A DNA stretch of 64,000 bases from Flavobacteriales bacterium (GTDB lineage: Bacteria > Bacteroidota > Bacteroidia > Flavobacteriales_E > Vicingaceae): positions 62,001-126,000 of the forward strand of contig JABTUP010000006.1 in the NCBI GenBank assembly GCA_015075325.1, written 5' to 3'. Position numbers and translations under genes: made by a program. Position 1 is the stretch's first letter. Each line of letters starts with the position of its first letter. Positions 14,866 to 23,069 of this stretch are shown in pieces. Below the pieces are notes generated by a model. That model did not search any database and was not told the origin of the DNA. It saw only the letters and a program-made list of their open reading frames with translations.

Positions 14866-15477
14866 ATGAAAATAATTTGTATTGGTCGTAACTACGTTGA
14901 CCACGCTAAAGAGTTAAACAACCCTATTCCAAAAGAACCTGTTTTTTTTATGAAGCCCGATACCGCTTTAATACAAAGTAGAAATCCTTTTATTTACCCA
15001 AGTTTTTCAAACGACATACACCACGAAGTAGAAATTGTTGTTAAAATAAACAAAATAGGCAAACACATTGAAGAACGATTTGCTCATAAATACTATGAGG
15101 AAATAACTGTTGGAGTTGACTTTACTGCTCGTGATGTACAGCAACAATGCAAAGAGAAAGGCTTGCCTTGGGAAAAAGCTAAAGCATTTGATGGCTCCGC
15201 TCCTACTGGTAAATTTGTTAATATTTCCGAGTTCAACGACATCAACAACCTTATTTTTAGCTTACAAATAAACGGTGAAACTAAACAACAAGGCAACACC
15301 AAAGACATGTTGTTTAACATTAATCAAATTATTGCTTATGTTTCACAATTTGTTACACTAAAAATTGGCGATTATATTTTTACAGGAACGCCTGCTGGTG
15401 TTGGAGCGGTTAAAATCGGCGACAAAATCGAATGTTTTATTGAAGATAAAAAATTATTGAGTTTCAACGTGAAGTAA
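14866..15477 (+). CDS. Fumarylacetoacetate hydrolase (FAH) family protein
   Basis: A 203-residue single-domain FAH-fold enzyme, the short type that acts as an acylpyruvase or oxaloacetate decarboxylase/tautomerase. Metal ligands are in place: E54 and E56 in HHEVEIVV and D85 in GVDFTARDVQ; the C-terminal FTGTPAGVGAVKIGD loop is the family signature. The start at ATG 14866 gives the standard N-terminus MKIICIGRNYVDHAKEL. The preceding 78-base gap contains low-complexity text (GACTAACGATTATTGACTAA) typical of Bacteroidota intergenic repeats. The substrate is unknown. Confidence 0.9.
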   Translation: MKIICIGRNYVDHAKELNNPIPKEPVFFMKPDTALIQSRNPFIYPSFSNDIHHEVEIVVKINKIGKHIEERFAHKYYEEITVGVDFTARDVQQQCKEKGLPWEKAKAFDGSAPTGKFVNISEFNDINNLIFSLQINGETKQQGNTKDMLFNINQIIAYVSQFVTLKIGDYIFTGTPAGVGAVKIGDKIECFIEDKKLLSFNVK

Positions 15478-15480
15478 AGA

Positions 15481-15700
15481 TTAAAAATCTTTTAACCTCT
15501 TTATGTTTCGCTCAATATAACTCATTGGAGTAATTAAAGCATCTGTATTCTTTTAGAATATCTAATACTCTCTAATACCTCTGCTTTTCCTCAATAATAT
15601 GTTTTTGTTGTTCAATTAATAAATTCTGTTTTTGAATAACCTTAAACCTATTGTATATAAATATATCAAGGCTTTTTTTTACATTTACCTCTTCAATAAA
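15481..15700 (-). pseudogene. Decayed C-terminal piece of a TPR/coiled-coil signalling protein (SpoIIE or kinase linker)
   Basis: On the minus strand three short stretches in different frames read as the linker that follows the membrane helix in Bacteroidota TPR-SpoIIE or TPR-kinase regulators: IYNRFKVIQKQNLLIEQQK then HIIEEKQR (15700 to about 15575), ESIRYSKRIQM (about 15570 to 15540), and LITPMSYIERNIKRLKDF (15538 to 15481). IRYSKRIQ is very close to the SIxYAKRIQ signature of those proteins. The stretches are separated by frameshifts and a stop, and the catalytic domain is absent. A matching N-terminal TPR piece on the same strand lies at 19768-20197, on the far side of the peptide-export genes. 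Confidence 0.6.
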
Positions 15701-15759
15701 TAATTATAGACTATAAACATTGTTAAGATAACTAATTTCTTTAATAATTTTTTTGATTA

Positions 15760-17946
15760 ATGCCAAAATTTCCAATTTCTAGACAACCAGGAGCTATGGA
15801 TTGTGGGGCAACATGCCTTAAGATGATTTCTGAATTCTATGGCAAGAAATTTTCAATTAATTTTTTAAAAAAAAAGACTCACGTTTCAAAAGAAGGTGTT
15901 TCATTTGCCAATATTATTGAGGCAGCAGAAACGATAGGATTAAGGAGTACTGCTGCAAAATTAGATTTAGACGCAATAGAAGTGCATAATTTTATGCCTT
16001 GTATTATCCATTGGAAACAAAATCACTTCATTATTTTATATAAAATAAGCGGAAATAAAGTGTATGTGGCTGACCCTGGTGCAGGGTTAATTAAGTATTC
16101 AAAAACTGAATTTGAAACTAATTGGAAAGGAAAAAGTGATGTCGGTGTCGCATTAAATTTTAAGCCAAGTTCAGAATTCTATCAGCTAGATTTATCGGAT
16201 GATGAAAAAGAAAAAACACAAGGGCTTAGTTATTTAATAAACTATTTAAAGGGGTACAATAAGTATTATGTTCAACTTTTTCTTGGTTTTTTTGTTGGGA
16301 GTTTTATTCTATTATTAACACCCTTTCTTAGTCAAGCAATTATAGATAAAGGGATAAATAATTTAGATTTAAATTTTGTTTATTTAATATTAATAGCTCA
16401 AGCACTTTTGTATGTCGGAAGAGTACTTATCGATATATTTAGACGTTGGATATTGTTGCATATTGGAACTCGTATTTCAATCTCTTTAGTTTCAGATTTT
16501 TTGTTTAAACTCTTAAAGTTACCTATATCTTTCTTCGAAAACCATTTAATCGGAGATTTACTTCAACGAATCGAAGAGCATGATAGAATAAAACAATTAC
16601 TTACTGTAAATTCATTAGCAGCACTATTTTCTGTGATTAATTTGGTGGTTTTTGGTACGGTACTCCTTATTTATGATTTCACCATTTTTTTTATTTTCTT
16701 TACAGGAACAGCATTAAGCTTATTATGGATTTTAATGTCATTGAAAGCACGAAAAAAGCACGATATTGCACGATTTGGTATTTTAGCAAAAAATAAAGAA
16801 AAGACTATTGAACTAATTAAAGGAATTAATGAAATAAAATTAAACAACAACGAAAAACAAAAACGATGGGAATGGGAAGAAATTCAAGCAAAGTTGTTTT
16901 TAACCAATTTAAAGTGGGAATCTGTACAAATGACCCAAAATGTTGGAGTTACTATCATTGAAGAGGCTAAAAACATAATTATTTCCTTTGTTTCTGCTAA
17001 AGCTGTTATAGAAGGAGATATTACTTTAGGAGCAATGTTCTCTATCAATATGATTGTAGGTCAGCTATTTGCCCCAGTTGCTTCAATTATTCAATTTATT
17101 ATGAATTATGCTGATGCTAAAATATCGGTAAACAGAATTGAAGAAGTTAGAAACGAAACAGATGAAATTGATAATAAAAAACATTTTATTGAAGAGATTA
17201 AGGAAGATAATGAAATGCAATTTGATGACGTTTCGTTTAGTTACATGGGTACTAGAACAGATTTAGTATTAAAAAAGATTAATTTAACAGTACTAAAAGG
17301 TAAACAAACTGCCATTGTAGGTAAGAGTGGAAGTGGAAAATCGACCTTAATGAAATTAATGCTAAAATTCCATGAACCTACTGATGGGATGATTCAGATA
17401 GGAAATTTTAATTTCACTAATGTTAATCCTACAGCTTGGAGAAAAAATATTGGAGTGGTTTTACAAGATGGGTATATTTTCTCTGATACTATTTTTAATA
17501 ATGTAGCCATGGGAAAAGAAGATGCAACTATCGAAGAAGTGATTAATGCTTCAAAAATTGCATGTATTCATGATTTTATTTCAGAAAATTTACCATTAGG
17601 TTATCAGACCATTATTGGGTCAGAAGGAATTAGTTTAAGTAAAGGGCAACATCAACGCTTGCTTATTGCTAGAGCGGTAATAAAAAACCCTAAATATATT
17701 TTTATGGATGAATCCACATCCGCTTTAGATACTTCTACTGAAAAAAAATTAATGGATAATTTAAACAAATATTTTACGAATAGAACAGTTGTTGTAATTG
17801 CACACCGATTAAGTACAATAAAAAATTCTGATCAAATATTAGTAATAGATCAAGGAAAAATAACCGAAAAAGGAACGCATGATGAATTAGTAAATCAAAA
17901 AGGATATTATTTTCAGTTAGTTAAAGACCAAATAGAATTAGATTAA
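15760..17946 (+). CDS. Peptidase-containing ABC exporter (C39 type, double-glycine leader processing)
   Basis: A 728-residue ABC transporter that cleaves a GG leader and exports the peptide. The N-terminal C39 peptidase domain has Gln9 (oxyanion hole), Cys15 in DCGATC, His89 (WKQNHFIILY) and Asp105 (ADPG), so the protease looks active. Six-helix membrane domain about 165-445; ATPase domain with Walker A GKSGSGKST (about 520-530), signature LSKGQHQR (about 624) instead of LSGGQ, and Walker B YIFMDESTSALD. Followed after 3 bases by an HlyD-like adaptor and, 1.6 kb on, by a GG-leader peptide gene, which makes a peptide exporter role nearly certain. No strong -7 box is evident upstream. Confidence 0.94.
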   Translation: MPKFPISRQPGAMDCGATCLKMISEFYGKKFSINFLKKKTHVSKEGVSFANIIEAAETIGLRSTAAKLDLDAIEVHNFMPCIIHWKQNHFIILYKISGNKVYVADPGAGLIKYSKTEFETNWKGKSDVGVALNFKPSSEFYQLDLSDDEKEKTQGLSYLINYLKGYNKYYVQLFLGFFVGSFILLLTPFLSQAIIDKGINNLDLNFVYLILIAQALLYVGRVLIDIFRRWILLHIGTRISISLVSDFLFKLLKLPISFFENHLIGDLLQRIEEHDRIKQLLTVNSLAALFSVINLVVFGTVLLIYDFTIFFIFFTGTALSLLWILMSLKARKKHDIARFGILAKNKEKTIELIKGINEIKLNNNEKQKRWEWEEIQAKLFLTNLKWESVQMTQNVGVTIIEEAKNIIISFVSAKAVIEGDITLGAMFSINMIVGQLFAPVASIIQFIMNYADAKISVNRIEEVRNETDEIDNKKHFIEEIKEDNEMQFDDVSFSYMGTRTDLVLKKINLTVLKGKQTAIVGKSGSGKSTLMKLMLKFHEPTDGMIQIGNFNFTNVNPTAWRKNIGVVLQDGYIFSDTIFNNVAMGKEDATIEEVINASKIACIHDFISENLPLGYQTIIGSEGISLSKGQHQRLLIARAVIKNPKYIFMDESTSALDTSTEKKLMDNLNKYFTNRTVVVIAHRLSTIKNSDQILVIDQGKITEKGTHDELVNQKGYYFQLVKDQIELD

Positions 17947-17949
17947 TCT

Positions 17950-19245
17950 ATGCCAACAGAAGAAAAAAAATATCAAGTTGATGAAATTGTAGGAGCACCA
18001 CCTCAAGGAATTATTTTTTGGGGGTCAACCATGATTTTTTCATTATTTGTATTAATATTTATTCTTTCTTTTTTTATTAAGTATCCTGATACCATCATCA
18101 ATGAAATTACCATAACATCAGAAAACCCTCCATTAGAAATTATATCTAAAAAAAGTGGAGAAATCAGTTTGTTTGTAAAAGACCAATCCATAGTGAAAAA
18201 AGGTGAGGTTTTAGCTATTATAGAAAATTCGGTAAATTATGACGATTTAATACTTTTAAAGGAAAAACTAATAGCATTTAAAATAGACAGTTTAAAAGAA
18301 AATGAATTGTTTTATCAAAATGTTTTGAAAATTGATACTTTACTTAATTACTCATTTAAAATAGGAGAATTAGAAGCATCATTTTCAGAATTTAATAAAA
18401 GTCTTAAAGAATTTATTTTTTTTCATGATATTGGTTATCACTCTAAAAAAAGTGGAGTTGTACAACAAAAAATTGATAAATATTATAAATTAAAGGAGAA
18501 TTTAAAACATCAGATTTTAAATAAACAAAAAGAGTTTGATTTGGTAAAAAAAAACTACGAAAGACAAACTAAATTATTAGCCTCTGGAGCTATTTCAGTT
18601 GTTGAAGAAGAAAAGTTTCAAATTGAATTGTTGGATAAACAAAATGAGATGGAGAACTTAAAATCTAATTTAATAAATACAGATATTCAAATTTATGAAT
18701 TAAAAAGTTTAGTACTTGAAAATGAGTTCGATTCTCAAGGGAATACCGAAAAATTTAAAGTTTCACTAATAAAATCGTATAATACTTTAATAAGTAATAT
18801 TGATGTGTGGGAAGAAATCTATGTATTAAAATCGCCAATGAATGGAAAAGTTTCGTTTTTTGAATATAGAAACAACAAACAATATGTTGAAGAAGGTAAA
18901 ATTGTAATGACCATTTTACCATCTGAAATTAGCAGATTAATTGGACAGATGAAGATACCTTCTTCTAAATCGGGGAAAGTTAAAATTGGACAAAAAATTA
19001 TTATTCAATTAGCCAATTATCCACACGATGAATTTGGTAAAATTTTTGGTAAAATTTCAAAAATATCATTAATACCGCAAGATAAACTATATTATGTAGA
19101 AGTTGATTTACCAAATGGATTAACTACCAGTTACAATATTAAACTAGAATTTAAACAAAAATTAATTGGTAATGGAGAAATAGTAACCGAAGATTTAAGT
19201 TTATTCCAACGTATATTTAATCAATTTAGGAAGCTAAATGATTAA
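17950..19245 (+). CDS. HlyD family secretion adaptor of the peptide exporter
   Basis: A 431-residue type I secretion adaptor that would connect the C39 exporter to an outer-membrane channel. A single membrane helix lies at about 22-45 (MIFSLFVLIFILSFFI), followed by a half-lipoyl segment (ISKKSGEISLFVKDQSIVKK), long coiled-coil arms about 85-260 (KKNYERQTKLLASGAISVVE), the second lipoyl half (LKSPMNGKVSFFEYRNN) and a beta domain with IGQKIIIQLANYPHDEFG. This is the usual bacteriocin-export adaptor of Bacteroidota. Start ATG is 3 bases after the exporter stop, so the two are translationally linked. No outer-membrane channel gene is present locally, so a shared TolC is probable. Confidence 0.92.
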   Translation: MPTEEKKYQVDEIVGAPPQGIIFWGSTMIFSLFVLIFILSFFIKYPDTIINEITITSENPPLEIISKKSGEISLFVKDQSIVKKGEVLAIIENSVNYDDLILLKEKLIAFKIDSLKENELFYQNVLKIDTLLNYSFKIGELEASFSEFNKSLKEFIFFHDIGYHSKKSGVVQQKIDKYYKLKENLKHQILNKQKEFDLVKKNYERQTKLLASGAISVVEEEKFQIELLDKQNEMENLKSNLINTDIQIYELKSLVLENEFDSQGNTEKFKVSLIKSYNTLISNIDVWEEIYVLKSPMNGKVSFFEYRNNKQYVEEGKIVMTILPSEISRLIGQMKIPSSKSGKVKIGQKIIIQLANYPHDEFGKIFGKISKISLIPQDKLYYVEVDLPNGLTTSYNIKLEFKQKLIGNGEIVTEDLSLFQRIFNQFRKLND

Positions 19246-19482
19246 ATAAGGTGGATTCATAGTCCAATTTATTTAATAATGAGTTTAGCAACTTACTCTT
19301 GTACTTTGTAAATCATCTTGATTACACAATAATCCATTACTCCTAAAATTGTTTTTCCAATAACATTTTTAACTATTTTTTTAACATGGAATTTAATAAA
19401 TGATGTATATAGTTTAATAGCTAAAAAATAACGATTAATGACAGTATTTTTATGATTAATTTATTTTATCTAACTATTTATT

Positions 19483-19490
19483 TATATTTG
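19483..19490 (+). promoter_or_regulatory. -7 box of the precursor peptide gene
   Basis: TATATTTG, an exact match to the Bacteroidota -7 consensus, 43 bases before the ATG at 19534. No TTG was seen at the expected -33 distance. The 288 bases between the adaptor stop and this peptide start hold no other gene that I can see. The box suggests the peptide has its own transcript separate from the exporter genes. Confidence 0.6.
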
Positions 19491-19533
19491 TGTGACATTA
19501 ATATTTTTAATCAAATTTAAAAAATTCAAATTT

Positions 19534-19695
19534 ATGAAACTGAAAAATTTATTTAAAAAAACTGAAAAATCAGTTGCAAAGTCAAAATTTCAAGAGTTAG
19601 ACAAAAATCAAGTTAAAAAAGTTATTGGTGGCTTGGATTTAACAAAACCGCAACATGATCAGGCAAAGACTTGTCCTCAAAATATAAGAGGATAA
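19534..19695 (+). CDS. Double-glycine leader precursor peptide (bacteriocin- or pheromone-like)
   Basis: A 53-residue peptide, start ATG 19534 (an in-frame GTG at 19492 would add an unrelated N-terminus). The leader MKLKNLF..FQELDKNQVKKVIGG follows the Bacteroidota GG-leader pattern (KLKNL, then ELxKxxxKxIxGG) with cleavage predicted after residue 33. The predicted core is 20 residues, LDLTKPQHDQAKTCPQNIRG, with one Cys and a net positive charge of about one. It lies directly downstream of the C39 exporter and adaptor, which are expected to process and secrete it. No modification enzyme (LanM, radical SAM, YcaO) and no recognisable immunity gene are nearby. The activity of the core is unknown. 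Confidence 0.85.
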   Translation: MKLKNLFKKTEKSVAKSKFQELDKNQVKKVIGGLDLTKPQHDQAKTCPQNIRG

Positions 19696-19710
19696 ATTGA
19701 ATACCTAACA

Positions 19711-19762
19711 ATTATGCTAATAAGTTTTTCTGATAATTATCAGAAAAACTTATTAGCATAAT
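19711..19762. terminator. 52-nt perfect palindrome after the precursor peptide gene
   Basis: Left arm 19711-19734 (ATTATGCTAATAAGTTTTTC, then TGAT), centre AATT, and a fully complementary right arm 19739-19762. The 24-bp stem has no mismatch and starts 15 bases after the peptide stop. It can act as a terminator for the peptide transcript and, read from the other strand, for the TPR remnant at 19768. It marks the boundary between the export island and that remnant. Confidence 0.75.
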
Positions 19763-19767
19763 TTTAA

Positions 19768-20197
19768 TTAACGATGGCTAGCTAAAGCATAGTTTTTTTT
19801 TGGCTATTATATACATTCCCTAAATTGATATAAACACTGCAATATTTCTTATACTGTCCTTCGGTTTTATCAAGTTCCCTTAATCCAGTATTAAACGAAT
19901 TAATTACCAAATCAAACTCGCTTTGATAGCGATAGATGTTACCGGAGACATTATATGCATCAACCAATTGAATAACATTATTCGTTGTTTTTGCATATTT
20001 TAAAGCCTGATTTGCATAAATTAAAGCAGAATCAACATTGTTTTCTAAATACTCCCATGCAATTTCAGTACAAAGATATGCTTTAATGGAATCTTGTTTA
20101 GGTTGTTTTTTAATTCATTTAATAATGAATTTAAGCTTTGAGAATAGCCATTACTCAAAGAAATAAAAACAATCAAGGCTGTTATTAACTTGTTCAT
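19768..20197 (-). pseudogene. Frameshifted N-terminal fragment of an exported TPR protein
   Basis: Starts at ATG 20197 with a signal peptide (MNKLITALIVFISLSNGYSQ). The first frame stops early after KIPLKHIF.., but one frame over the sequence continues sensibly as DSIKAYLCTEIAWEYLENN, DSALIYANQALKYAKTTNN, then SGNIYRYQSEFDLVINSF, i.e. TPR motifs. A second shift at a run of nine A (19796-19804 region) is needed after NVYNSQKK to read NYALASHR and the last stop near 19768. The protein then ends abruptly inside a TPR, next to the palindrome. So this is a broken, truncated regulator such as a TPR-SpoIIE or TPR-kinase protein. The 200 bases from 20198 to 20397 hold nothing I recognise. Confidence 0.75.
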
Positions 20198-20397
20198 CAC
20201 AAACAAATTTGCATAAATATTATCAGCTAATGTACCCATTTTTCTAAAATTTGAACTGAAATTAATGCGTAATAAAAAAATAAACACTGTCATTATTACA
20301 GTATTAACAGCTTTTTTAGTGACATTTTTTCCGATAAAACACTGCATTTTAACAATGGATTGTAATTTGACAAGTTCAAACAAAAATCTTATTTGTT

Positions 20398-23007
20398 ATG
20401 AATTTTAATAATTACACCATCAAATCTCAAGAAGCAATTCAACAAGCTCAGCAAGTTGCATTGTCGCATCAACATCAAAGCATAGAAACAGGACACATCC
20501 TAAAAGGTATTTTGGAAGTTGATGAAAACGTTACTCCATTTATTCTAAAAAAATTAGGAGTTAACATTTCCATTTTTAAACAAGCATTAGACAAAATTGT
20601 TGAGTCCTATCCAAAAGTATCGGGCGGAAGCCAATACCTTACCCAACATTCTAGCAATGCTTTAAATAAAGCGAATAGTTACCTCAAAGAATTTGGCGAC
20701 GAATATGTTGCCATCGAACACCTTTTACTTGGATTGTTGAGTGGCTCCGACACCATTGCTCAGTTGCTAAAAGATAACGGAGTAAAAGAAAAAGAACTTA
20801 AAGCAGCTATTCAGGAATTGCGAAAAGGCGAAAAAGTAACCTCACAAAGTCAAGAAGAACAATACAATTCATTAAAAAAATATGCTAAAAACTTAAACGA
20901 ATTAGCAAAGCTAAACAAACTCGACCCAGTTATTGGTCGCGACGAAGAAATTCGACGAGTTTTACAAATTTTATCAAGAAGAACCAAAAACAATCCTATT
21001 TTAATAGGAGAACCTGGTGTAGGTAAAACAGCCATTGCCGAAGGTTTAGCTCACCGTATTATTCAAGGCGACGTGCCAGAAAACTTAAAAGACAAACAAA
21101 TTTTCTCGCTAGACATGGGAGCTTTGGTTGCTGGTGCAAAATACAAGGGCGAATTTGAAGAACGATTAAAAGCAGTAGTAAAAGAAGTTATTAATGCTGA
21201 AGGAGACATTGTATTGTTTATTGATGAAATACATACTCTTGTGGGTGCTGGTGGCGGAGAAGGAGCTATGGATGCTGCCAACATTTTAAAGCCTGCTCTT
21301 GCTCGTGGCGAACTGAAAGCTATTGGTGCAACCACGCTAAACGAATATCAAAAATATTTTGAAAAAGACAAAGCTCTTGAACGTCGTTTCCAAAAAGTAA
21401 TGATTGACGAGCCTTCTACCGAAGATGCTATTTCAATTTTAAGAGGAATAAAAGAAAAGTATGAATCGCATCATAAAGTTCAAATTAAAGACTCTGCAAT
21501 TATTGCTGCAGTAGAACTTTCTCAACGATACATTTCCGACCGTTTTTTACCAGATAAAGCCATCGACTTAGTGGATGAAGCAGCTTCTAAATTACGTATG
21601 GAAATAAACTCTAAACCTGAAGCATTAGACGAAATTGAACGTAAAATAATGCAATTGGAAATTGAGCGAGAAGCTATAAAAAGAGAAAAAGACGATAAAA
21701 AACTAGATTTAATAAAAGCTGAACTAGCAAACTTAACCGACGAAAAAAACAACCTTACCGCAAAATGGCAAGCCGAAAAAGATGTTGTTGATGGTATTCA
21801 AAAAACCAAAGACTTAATTGAACAATTGAAATACGAAGCAGAACAAGCCGAACGAAACAGTGATTTTGGAAAAGTTGCCGAAATACGATATGGAAAAATT
21901 AAAGAAGCTGAAGATAAGTTAACTAACTTTAAAAGTCAGCTTTCCGAACTTCAAGCAAATTCAAAAATGATTAAGGAAGAGGTTACTCCAGAAGAAATTG
22001 CAGAAGTGGTTTCTAAATGGACGGGAATACCTGTAACTAAAATGTTGGAAAGCGACAGAATGAAATTATTAAAACTCGAAGACGAATTGCACAAACGTGT
22101 TGTTGGACAAGAAGAGGCAATTGCTGCTGTTGCTGATGCAGTAAGACGAAGCCGTGCAGGATTACAAGATGAAAAACGCCCTATTGGTTCATTCATCTTT
22201 TTAGGTACTACTGGAGTTGGTAAAACAGAGCTAGCAAAAGCCCTAAGCGAATACCTATTTAACGACGAAAACGCCATGACCAGGATCGACATGAGTGAAT
22301 ACCAAGAAAAACATTCTGTATCGCGTTTAATTGGTGCTCCTCCAGGATATGTTGGTTACGATGAAGGCGGACAATTAACCGAAGCGGTAAGAAGAAAACC
22401 TTATTCAGTTGTATTGTTAGATGAAATTGAAAAAGCTCATCCCGATGTGTTTAACATACTATTACAAGTGTTAGATGACGGACGATTAACCGATAACAAA
22501 GGACGAGTGGTGAATTTTAAAAACACCATCATCATCATGACGTCGAACATTGGCTCACATTTAATTCAAGAAAACTTTGAAAACTTAGGTGATGTGGATA
22601 GAGATAACGTAATTGAGCGTACAAAAATTGAACTTTTTGGCTTACTAAAACAAACCATCAGACCAGAATTTTTAAACCGTATCGACGAAACAATTATGTT
22701 TACACCTCTCACAAAACATGATGTGCTAAACATTGTAAAACTACAACTCAAAGGCTTAGCCAAGTTGTTAGCAAAAAACAACATTGAGTTAACTTTTACA
22801 GATGATGCTATTGAACACATTGCAAAGCTAGGTTACGACCCACAATTTGGAGCAAGACCAATTAAACGAGTATTGCAAAGAAATGTACTAAACGAACTCT
22901 CTAAACAACTCCTTGAAGGAAAAGTACAACCAGAAAGTGCAATAGTACTCGATCAATTTGAAGGTCAGTTTGTTTTTAGAAATAAAGTTGCTGAAAAAGT
23001 AAAATAA
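20398..23007 (+). CDS. clpB: ATP-dependent disaggregase ClpB
   Basis: An 869-residue Hsp100 chaperone that works with DnaK to pull apart aggregates. Double Clp-N domain about 1-145; first AAA+ module with Walker [10 protein letters not shown] at 204-212 and Walker [11 protein letters not shown]; the coiled-coil M domain (about 405-525, rich in Lys/Glu, with KWQAEKD) that separates ClpB from ClpA/C; second AAA+ module with Walker [10 protein letters not shown] at 603-611 and [17 protein letters not shown]-terminal D2 small domain ending near [19 protein letters not shown]. Length is standard. No ClpP-binding IGF loop is seen, as expected. It is transcribed alone and ends in a strong terminator. 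Confidence 0.98.
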
Positions 23008-23023
23008 ATAGAATCTTTACAAA

Positions 23024-23069
23024 CAAAAGAAAAGGGGTTTTGCTAAATAGCAAAACCCCTTTTCTTTTG
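23024..23069. terminator. Bidirectional intrinsic terminator between clpB and the minus-strand gene cluster
   Basis: Perfect 21-bp arms (23024-23044 and 23049-23069) with loop AAAT; the stem centre is GGGGTTTTGCT/AGCAAAACCCC. A and T runs within the outer arms supply a U tract for either strand. It ends clpB (17 bases after its stop) and the small secreted-protein gene on the other strand. Confidence 0.9.

Follow-up and report, generated by a model that had tools for sequence, protein, structure and literature searches.

Export unit between FAH and clpB

The window analysed here is a stretch of 64,000 nucleotides (G000:C56:62001-126000) that lies on a 148-kb contig of genome G000. Two plus-strand genes anchor the locus: a gene of the FAH family on the left (14866-15477; Pfam FAA_hydrolase, 2.9e-52), which shows 78-87% identity to genes at the same position in same-genus genomes, and clpB on the right (20398-23007; assigned by Pfam), with 89-93% identity in same-genus genomes. 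In several further genomes of the family, FAH and clpB likewise lie close together. In the window, the space between them holds a 4.1-kb unit composed of a C39 exporter, an HlyD-like adaptor, a GG-leader peptide and a palindrome, flanked on each side by minus-strand fragments. The initial annotation had listed the same plus-strand exporter, adaptor, peptide and perfect palindrome, all of which were recovered by Pfam, translation and an inverted-repeat scan, and its description of the island genes and the flanking fragments was accurate according to open reading frame translations and Pfam, apart from small coordinate shifts.

The exporter (15760-17946, plus strand, 728 amino acid residues) contains, according to Pfam, a C39 domain (7.3e-33), an ABC membrane domain and an ABC ATPase domain, and its motifs are intact (Cys box DCGATC, HWKQNHF, DPGAG, Walker A/B and LSKGQ). 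It belongs to the PCAT type: its C39 peptidase, with Cys-His-Asp, is N-terminal, and the ABC membrane domain and the ATPase domain follow, the Walker A, Walker B and signature motifs being present. PCAT versions of Gram-negative bacteria come with an HlyD-like adaptor, and the following gene (17950-19245, plus strand, 431 amino acid residues) encodes an HlyD-like periplasmic adaptor (Pfam HlyD_3, 8.5e-10; TIGR01843 below cut-off). Like the PCATs of known structure, 'ABC-type bacteriocin transporter' (PDB 4ry2) and ComA (PDB 8hf4), the exporter carries its C39, membrane and ATPase domains on a single chain, with a full-length match (3.5e-101 for 4ry2), and has a GG-leader peptide nearby, 290 bp downstream of the adaptor; it differs from them in being paired with an HlyD-like adaptor. 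The island also resembles the Bacteroidota loci for the export of bacteroidetocins and RiPPs, which combine a PCAT exporter with a GG-leader precursor (PMC10352776), but differs from them in lacking a modification enzyme or a recognisable immunity gene; neither of these, nor an outer-membrane channel, is present among the island open reading frames. Several exporter loci in genomes of the same taxonomic family carry genes that, read by eye rather than confirmed by profile, are of lanthipeptide or grasp-with-spasm type.

The peptide gene (19534-19695, plus strand, ATG start) encodes 53 amino acid residues, with a predicted leader of 33 residues ending in IGG and a product of 20 residues, LDLTKPQHDQAKTCPQNIRG, with one cysteine. 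It matched no family of known substrates in Pfam or NCBIfam, whose coverage of short precursors such as those of bacteroidetocins is poor. Membership of the ComC family was considered for the island peptide and was not reached; only a second peptide of the same genome scores against it, below cut-off. This second peptide (G000:C12:216818; L216:4819-4977) has a similar leader (55% identity, E 8e-4), also followed by 20 residues after the GG, and no exporter was seen within about 5 kb of it, so that one exporter may serve both peptides. A candidate Bacteroidota-type -7 promoter element, TATATTTG, is located 5' of the peptide gene (19483-19490, plus strand), as a match to the motif TAnnTTTG.

The palindrome (19710-19763) is a perfect one of 54 bp, the longest in the window; it begins 15 bp past the stop codon of the peptide, abuts the right junction and can fold on either strand (-33 to -35 kcal/mol). 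A second strong perfect inverted repeat, with arms of 22 bp and a loop of 2 bases, follows clpB (23024-23069) and is likely to be a terminator of the same type. Folding on both strands and the similar repeat after clpB fit a role as two-way terminator, which we consider likely for the palindrome.

The export unit looks functional. In the model that we infer, the C39 domain would cleave the precursor directly behind IGG, and the ABC domains, together with the adaptor and a TolC-type outer-membrane channel encoded elsewhere, would export the 20-residue product, with the palindrome as terminator; cleavage after GG and secretion of the 20-residue product are the most likely fate of the peptide.

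Two minus-strand remnants and the intact gene of a relative

The right fragment (19764-20197, minus strand) comprises a signal peptide and the first TPRs, with one frame change near 20110; its translation starts at 20197, uses two frames and reaches the edge of the palindrome. The left fragment (15481-15673, minus strand) comprises a coiled coil, the KRIQ linker and the native C-terminus, read in three successive frames (two frame changes). KRIQ fragments had been placed at 15700-15481 by the initial annotation; they are indeed there, but the homology fades at ~15650-15673 and does not extend to 15700. The segment between the left fragment and the exporter (15674-15759), which contains the left junction and presumably serves as the exporter's upstream region, has no detectable homology to the gene described below.

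It had been proposed that the two fragments come from one gene, and that this could be checked by searching with both and by finding a relative with an intact gene between FAH and clpB and no export island. Genome G003, which together with G001 belongs to the genus of the window, is such a relative: its FAH-clpB gap (~1,780 bp, vs ~4,920 bp in the window) contains one intact minus-strand TPR gene of 523 codons and no export island. Both fragments match this single gene, in the same order and orientation. The right fragment covers the first ~142 residues of the G003 protein (58% identity to residues 29-142, E 7e-44; 41% over residues 1-46, with the signal peptide matched in another frame), and the left one covers the last ~59 residues (58-85% identity, in pieces, to residues 464-522). 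BLOSUM62 scores against the intact protein were 351 and 104 for the N-terminal and C-terminal fragments, respectively, while 300 shuffles of each, made in blocks of two bases, never exceeded 50.

Reverse searches led to the same locus. For the N-terminal fragment, the G003 gene is the best match in 46 genomes of the family outside the fragment's own genome (E 2e-39), and the next one (1e-9) is weaker by ~30 orders of magnitude in E-value. For the C-terminal fragment, the best same-genus matches are the genes at the same locus in G001 and G003; one gene of G057 outscores them slightly, as expected for a conserved linker of 31 residues. At the nucleotide level, the alignment is unbroken from FAH into the C-terminal fragment (15412-15649 vs L087 629-871, 75%), where it stops, and from the clpB side through the N-terminal fragment to the palindrome edge at ~19763 (19711-20450 vs L087 1787-2524, 67%, the first ~50 bases being palindrome). 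Between these two points, ~1 kb of the centre of the TPR gene is absent from the window and 4.1 kb of new sequence stand in its place.

The matches at both ends, the colinearity, the reverse searches and the shuffles support a common origin, and we estimate a probability of about 0.9 that the two fragments are what is left of a single orthologous gene whose centre was replaced by the export unit. The FAH-clpB gap would thus once have held a single minus-strand gene with TPRs, a membrane helix and a coiled coil, still intact in G003; in the window lineage the central part would have been lost, the export unit now occupying its place and the gene ends being left as frameshifted remnants. The frameshifts in both remnants indicate that the TPR gene is dead in this lineage. 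No close second copy of it was found in G000, where the best full-length match has 27% identity.

A short TPR form without output domain

Signal peptide, TPRs, membrane helix, coiled coil and KRIQ linker are shared by the G003 gene with TPR-SpoIIE proteins and FimS-type TPR histidine kinases, and the interrupted gene had been taken for one of these two types. This identity was not borne out: the intact G003 gene differs from both in having no SpoIIE or kinase domain. In the G003 protein, Pfam detects TPR-type repeats and nothing else, while a hydrophobic segment followed by a coiled coil can be recognised by eye and the C-terminus comes directly past the KRIQ motif; the match of its TPR region to FimS is partial (NF053520, 5e-22, far below the cut-off of this model). 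A SpoIIE or kinase domain is equally absent from the G001 gene, and the C-terminus in the window lies at the same position beside FAH. Since only TPRs are detected and the protein stops right after KRIQ, the interrupted gene is, by its domain content, a short TPR form without output domain and not a TPR-SpoIIE or TPR-kinase gene. A search for literature on TPR-SpoIIE proteins in Bacteroidetes returned nothing useful.

Similar short forms occur elsewhere in both genomes. At G000:C21:22500-32000 (L218) and G003:C41:19000-29500 (L219) we observed tandem genes with TPRs, membrane helix and coiled coil that end in KRIQ...YIERxxxRLK and have no output domain, and among them, at both places, one stand-alone SpoIIE-type gene (Pfam SpoIIE, 1.2e-21, at G000:C21; its G003:C41 counterpart assigned by similarity only). 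The arrangement looks as if tandem sensor halves shared one phosphatase. Because a SpoIIE-type gene accompanies these arrays, a signalling role of the short TPR forms is a reasonable guess.

Arrival of the unit and history of the gap

The relatives of the exporter are mostly from Bacteroidota, the nearest ones (Fulvivirga, Draconibacterium and genomes of the same family) having only ~50-51% identity, and in the tree the exporter sits on a long branch of unresolved placement. Its GC content is 29%, vs 31-36% in the neighbouring genes. Horizontal arrival of the export unit is plausible, and no donor was found among the exporter relatives searched. We considered a mobile element and rejected it, since there is no transposase or integrase, nor room for one, among the island open reading frames, the palindrome has a single copy in the genome, and the junction regions share no run longer than 8 bases, the shared ones being AT runs. 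Neither a flanking duplication nor convincing direct repeats were found at the junctions. Nor is there support for a transfer in which KRIQ genes on either side of the unit recombined, as a motif scan, whose strict pattern could miss variants, gave no instance of a KRIQ gene next to an exporter at other loci.

The gap differs among relatives. In five genomes, G002 and four of another genus (G055, G050, G051 and G024), a gene named SPFH from its translation lies between FAH and clpB (L088-L092), and no such gene was found in G000, G001 and G003 in a search with the G002 protein. In G001, the closest relative of the window by FAH and clpB, the TPR gene at this locus (L086/L221, on G001:C1) has 32% identity to that of G003 in the aligned part, and its first ~110 residues are unaligned. 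This different N-terminal half implies at least one change in the history of the locus beyond the simple account, and suggests swapping between KRIQ paralogs. Taken together, the gene contents indicate that the FAH-clpB gap has changed its content on more than one occasion.

The initial annotation had the centre replaced by the island and the gene decaying afterwards. Replacement agrees with our comparison, while insertion first is one of two possible orders. In the other one, which differs only in the sequence of events, the gene was already dead and had lost its centre by deletion when the export unit arrived; we regard this order as possible, if somewhat less probable than not, in view of the several separate frameshifts in both remnants and of the earlier rebuilding of the gap, from which the SPFH gene has gone in G000, G001 and G003 and which therefore tolerates change. 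The differences between the N-terminal remnant and the G003 gene, 26, 23 and 48 at the three codon positions, bear on its age. With this excess at third positions and a dN/dS of ~0.18 (vs 0.03-0.09 in neighbouring genes where computable, ratios that are rough as synonymous sites are near saturation), the remnant was under constraint for much of its divergence from G003, which makes a very old death unlikely, without fixing the order.

A broader account would make the gap a site of repeated replacement in this family, at which whole genes change places between constant flanks (SPFH, then TPR, then the export unit), with the 54-bp palindrome helping to define the exchanged unit; we consider it unlikely. 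We find it very unlikely that the remnants derive from two neighbouring KRIQ-type TPR genes, each leaving one end: tandem copies of such genes do occur at G000:C21, G000:C34 and G003:C41, but in G003 and G001 a single gene is present at this locus, with the same C-terminal stop beside FAH, and the single gene of G003 is matched by each of the two remnants, with colinear DNA on both sides. An assembly error joining unrelated pieces is hardly credible, as both junctions lie within one 148-kb contig and remnants of one gene in the right order are not expected from a chance misjoin.

The replacement of the centre of one TPR gene by the export unit, the reading that we favour, is an ordinary gene replacement, unusually well preserved, and a new example of a known process rather than a new kind of system. 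G003 and the window form a clean before-and-after pair for the way in which small-peptide export units settle in Bacteroidota chromosomes, and the cost of the arrival of this unit would have been the loss of a sensor-like gene. The unit also presents a 20-residue peptide, without a match in the family libraries searched, that sits beside its own exporter and is directly testable.
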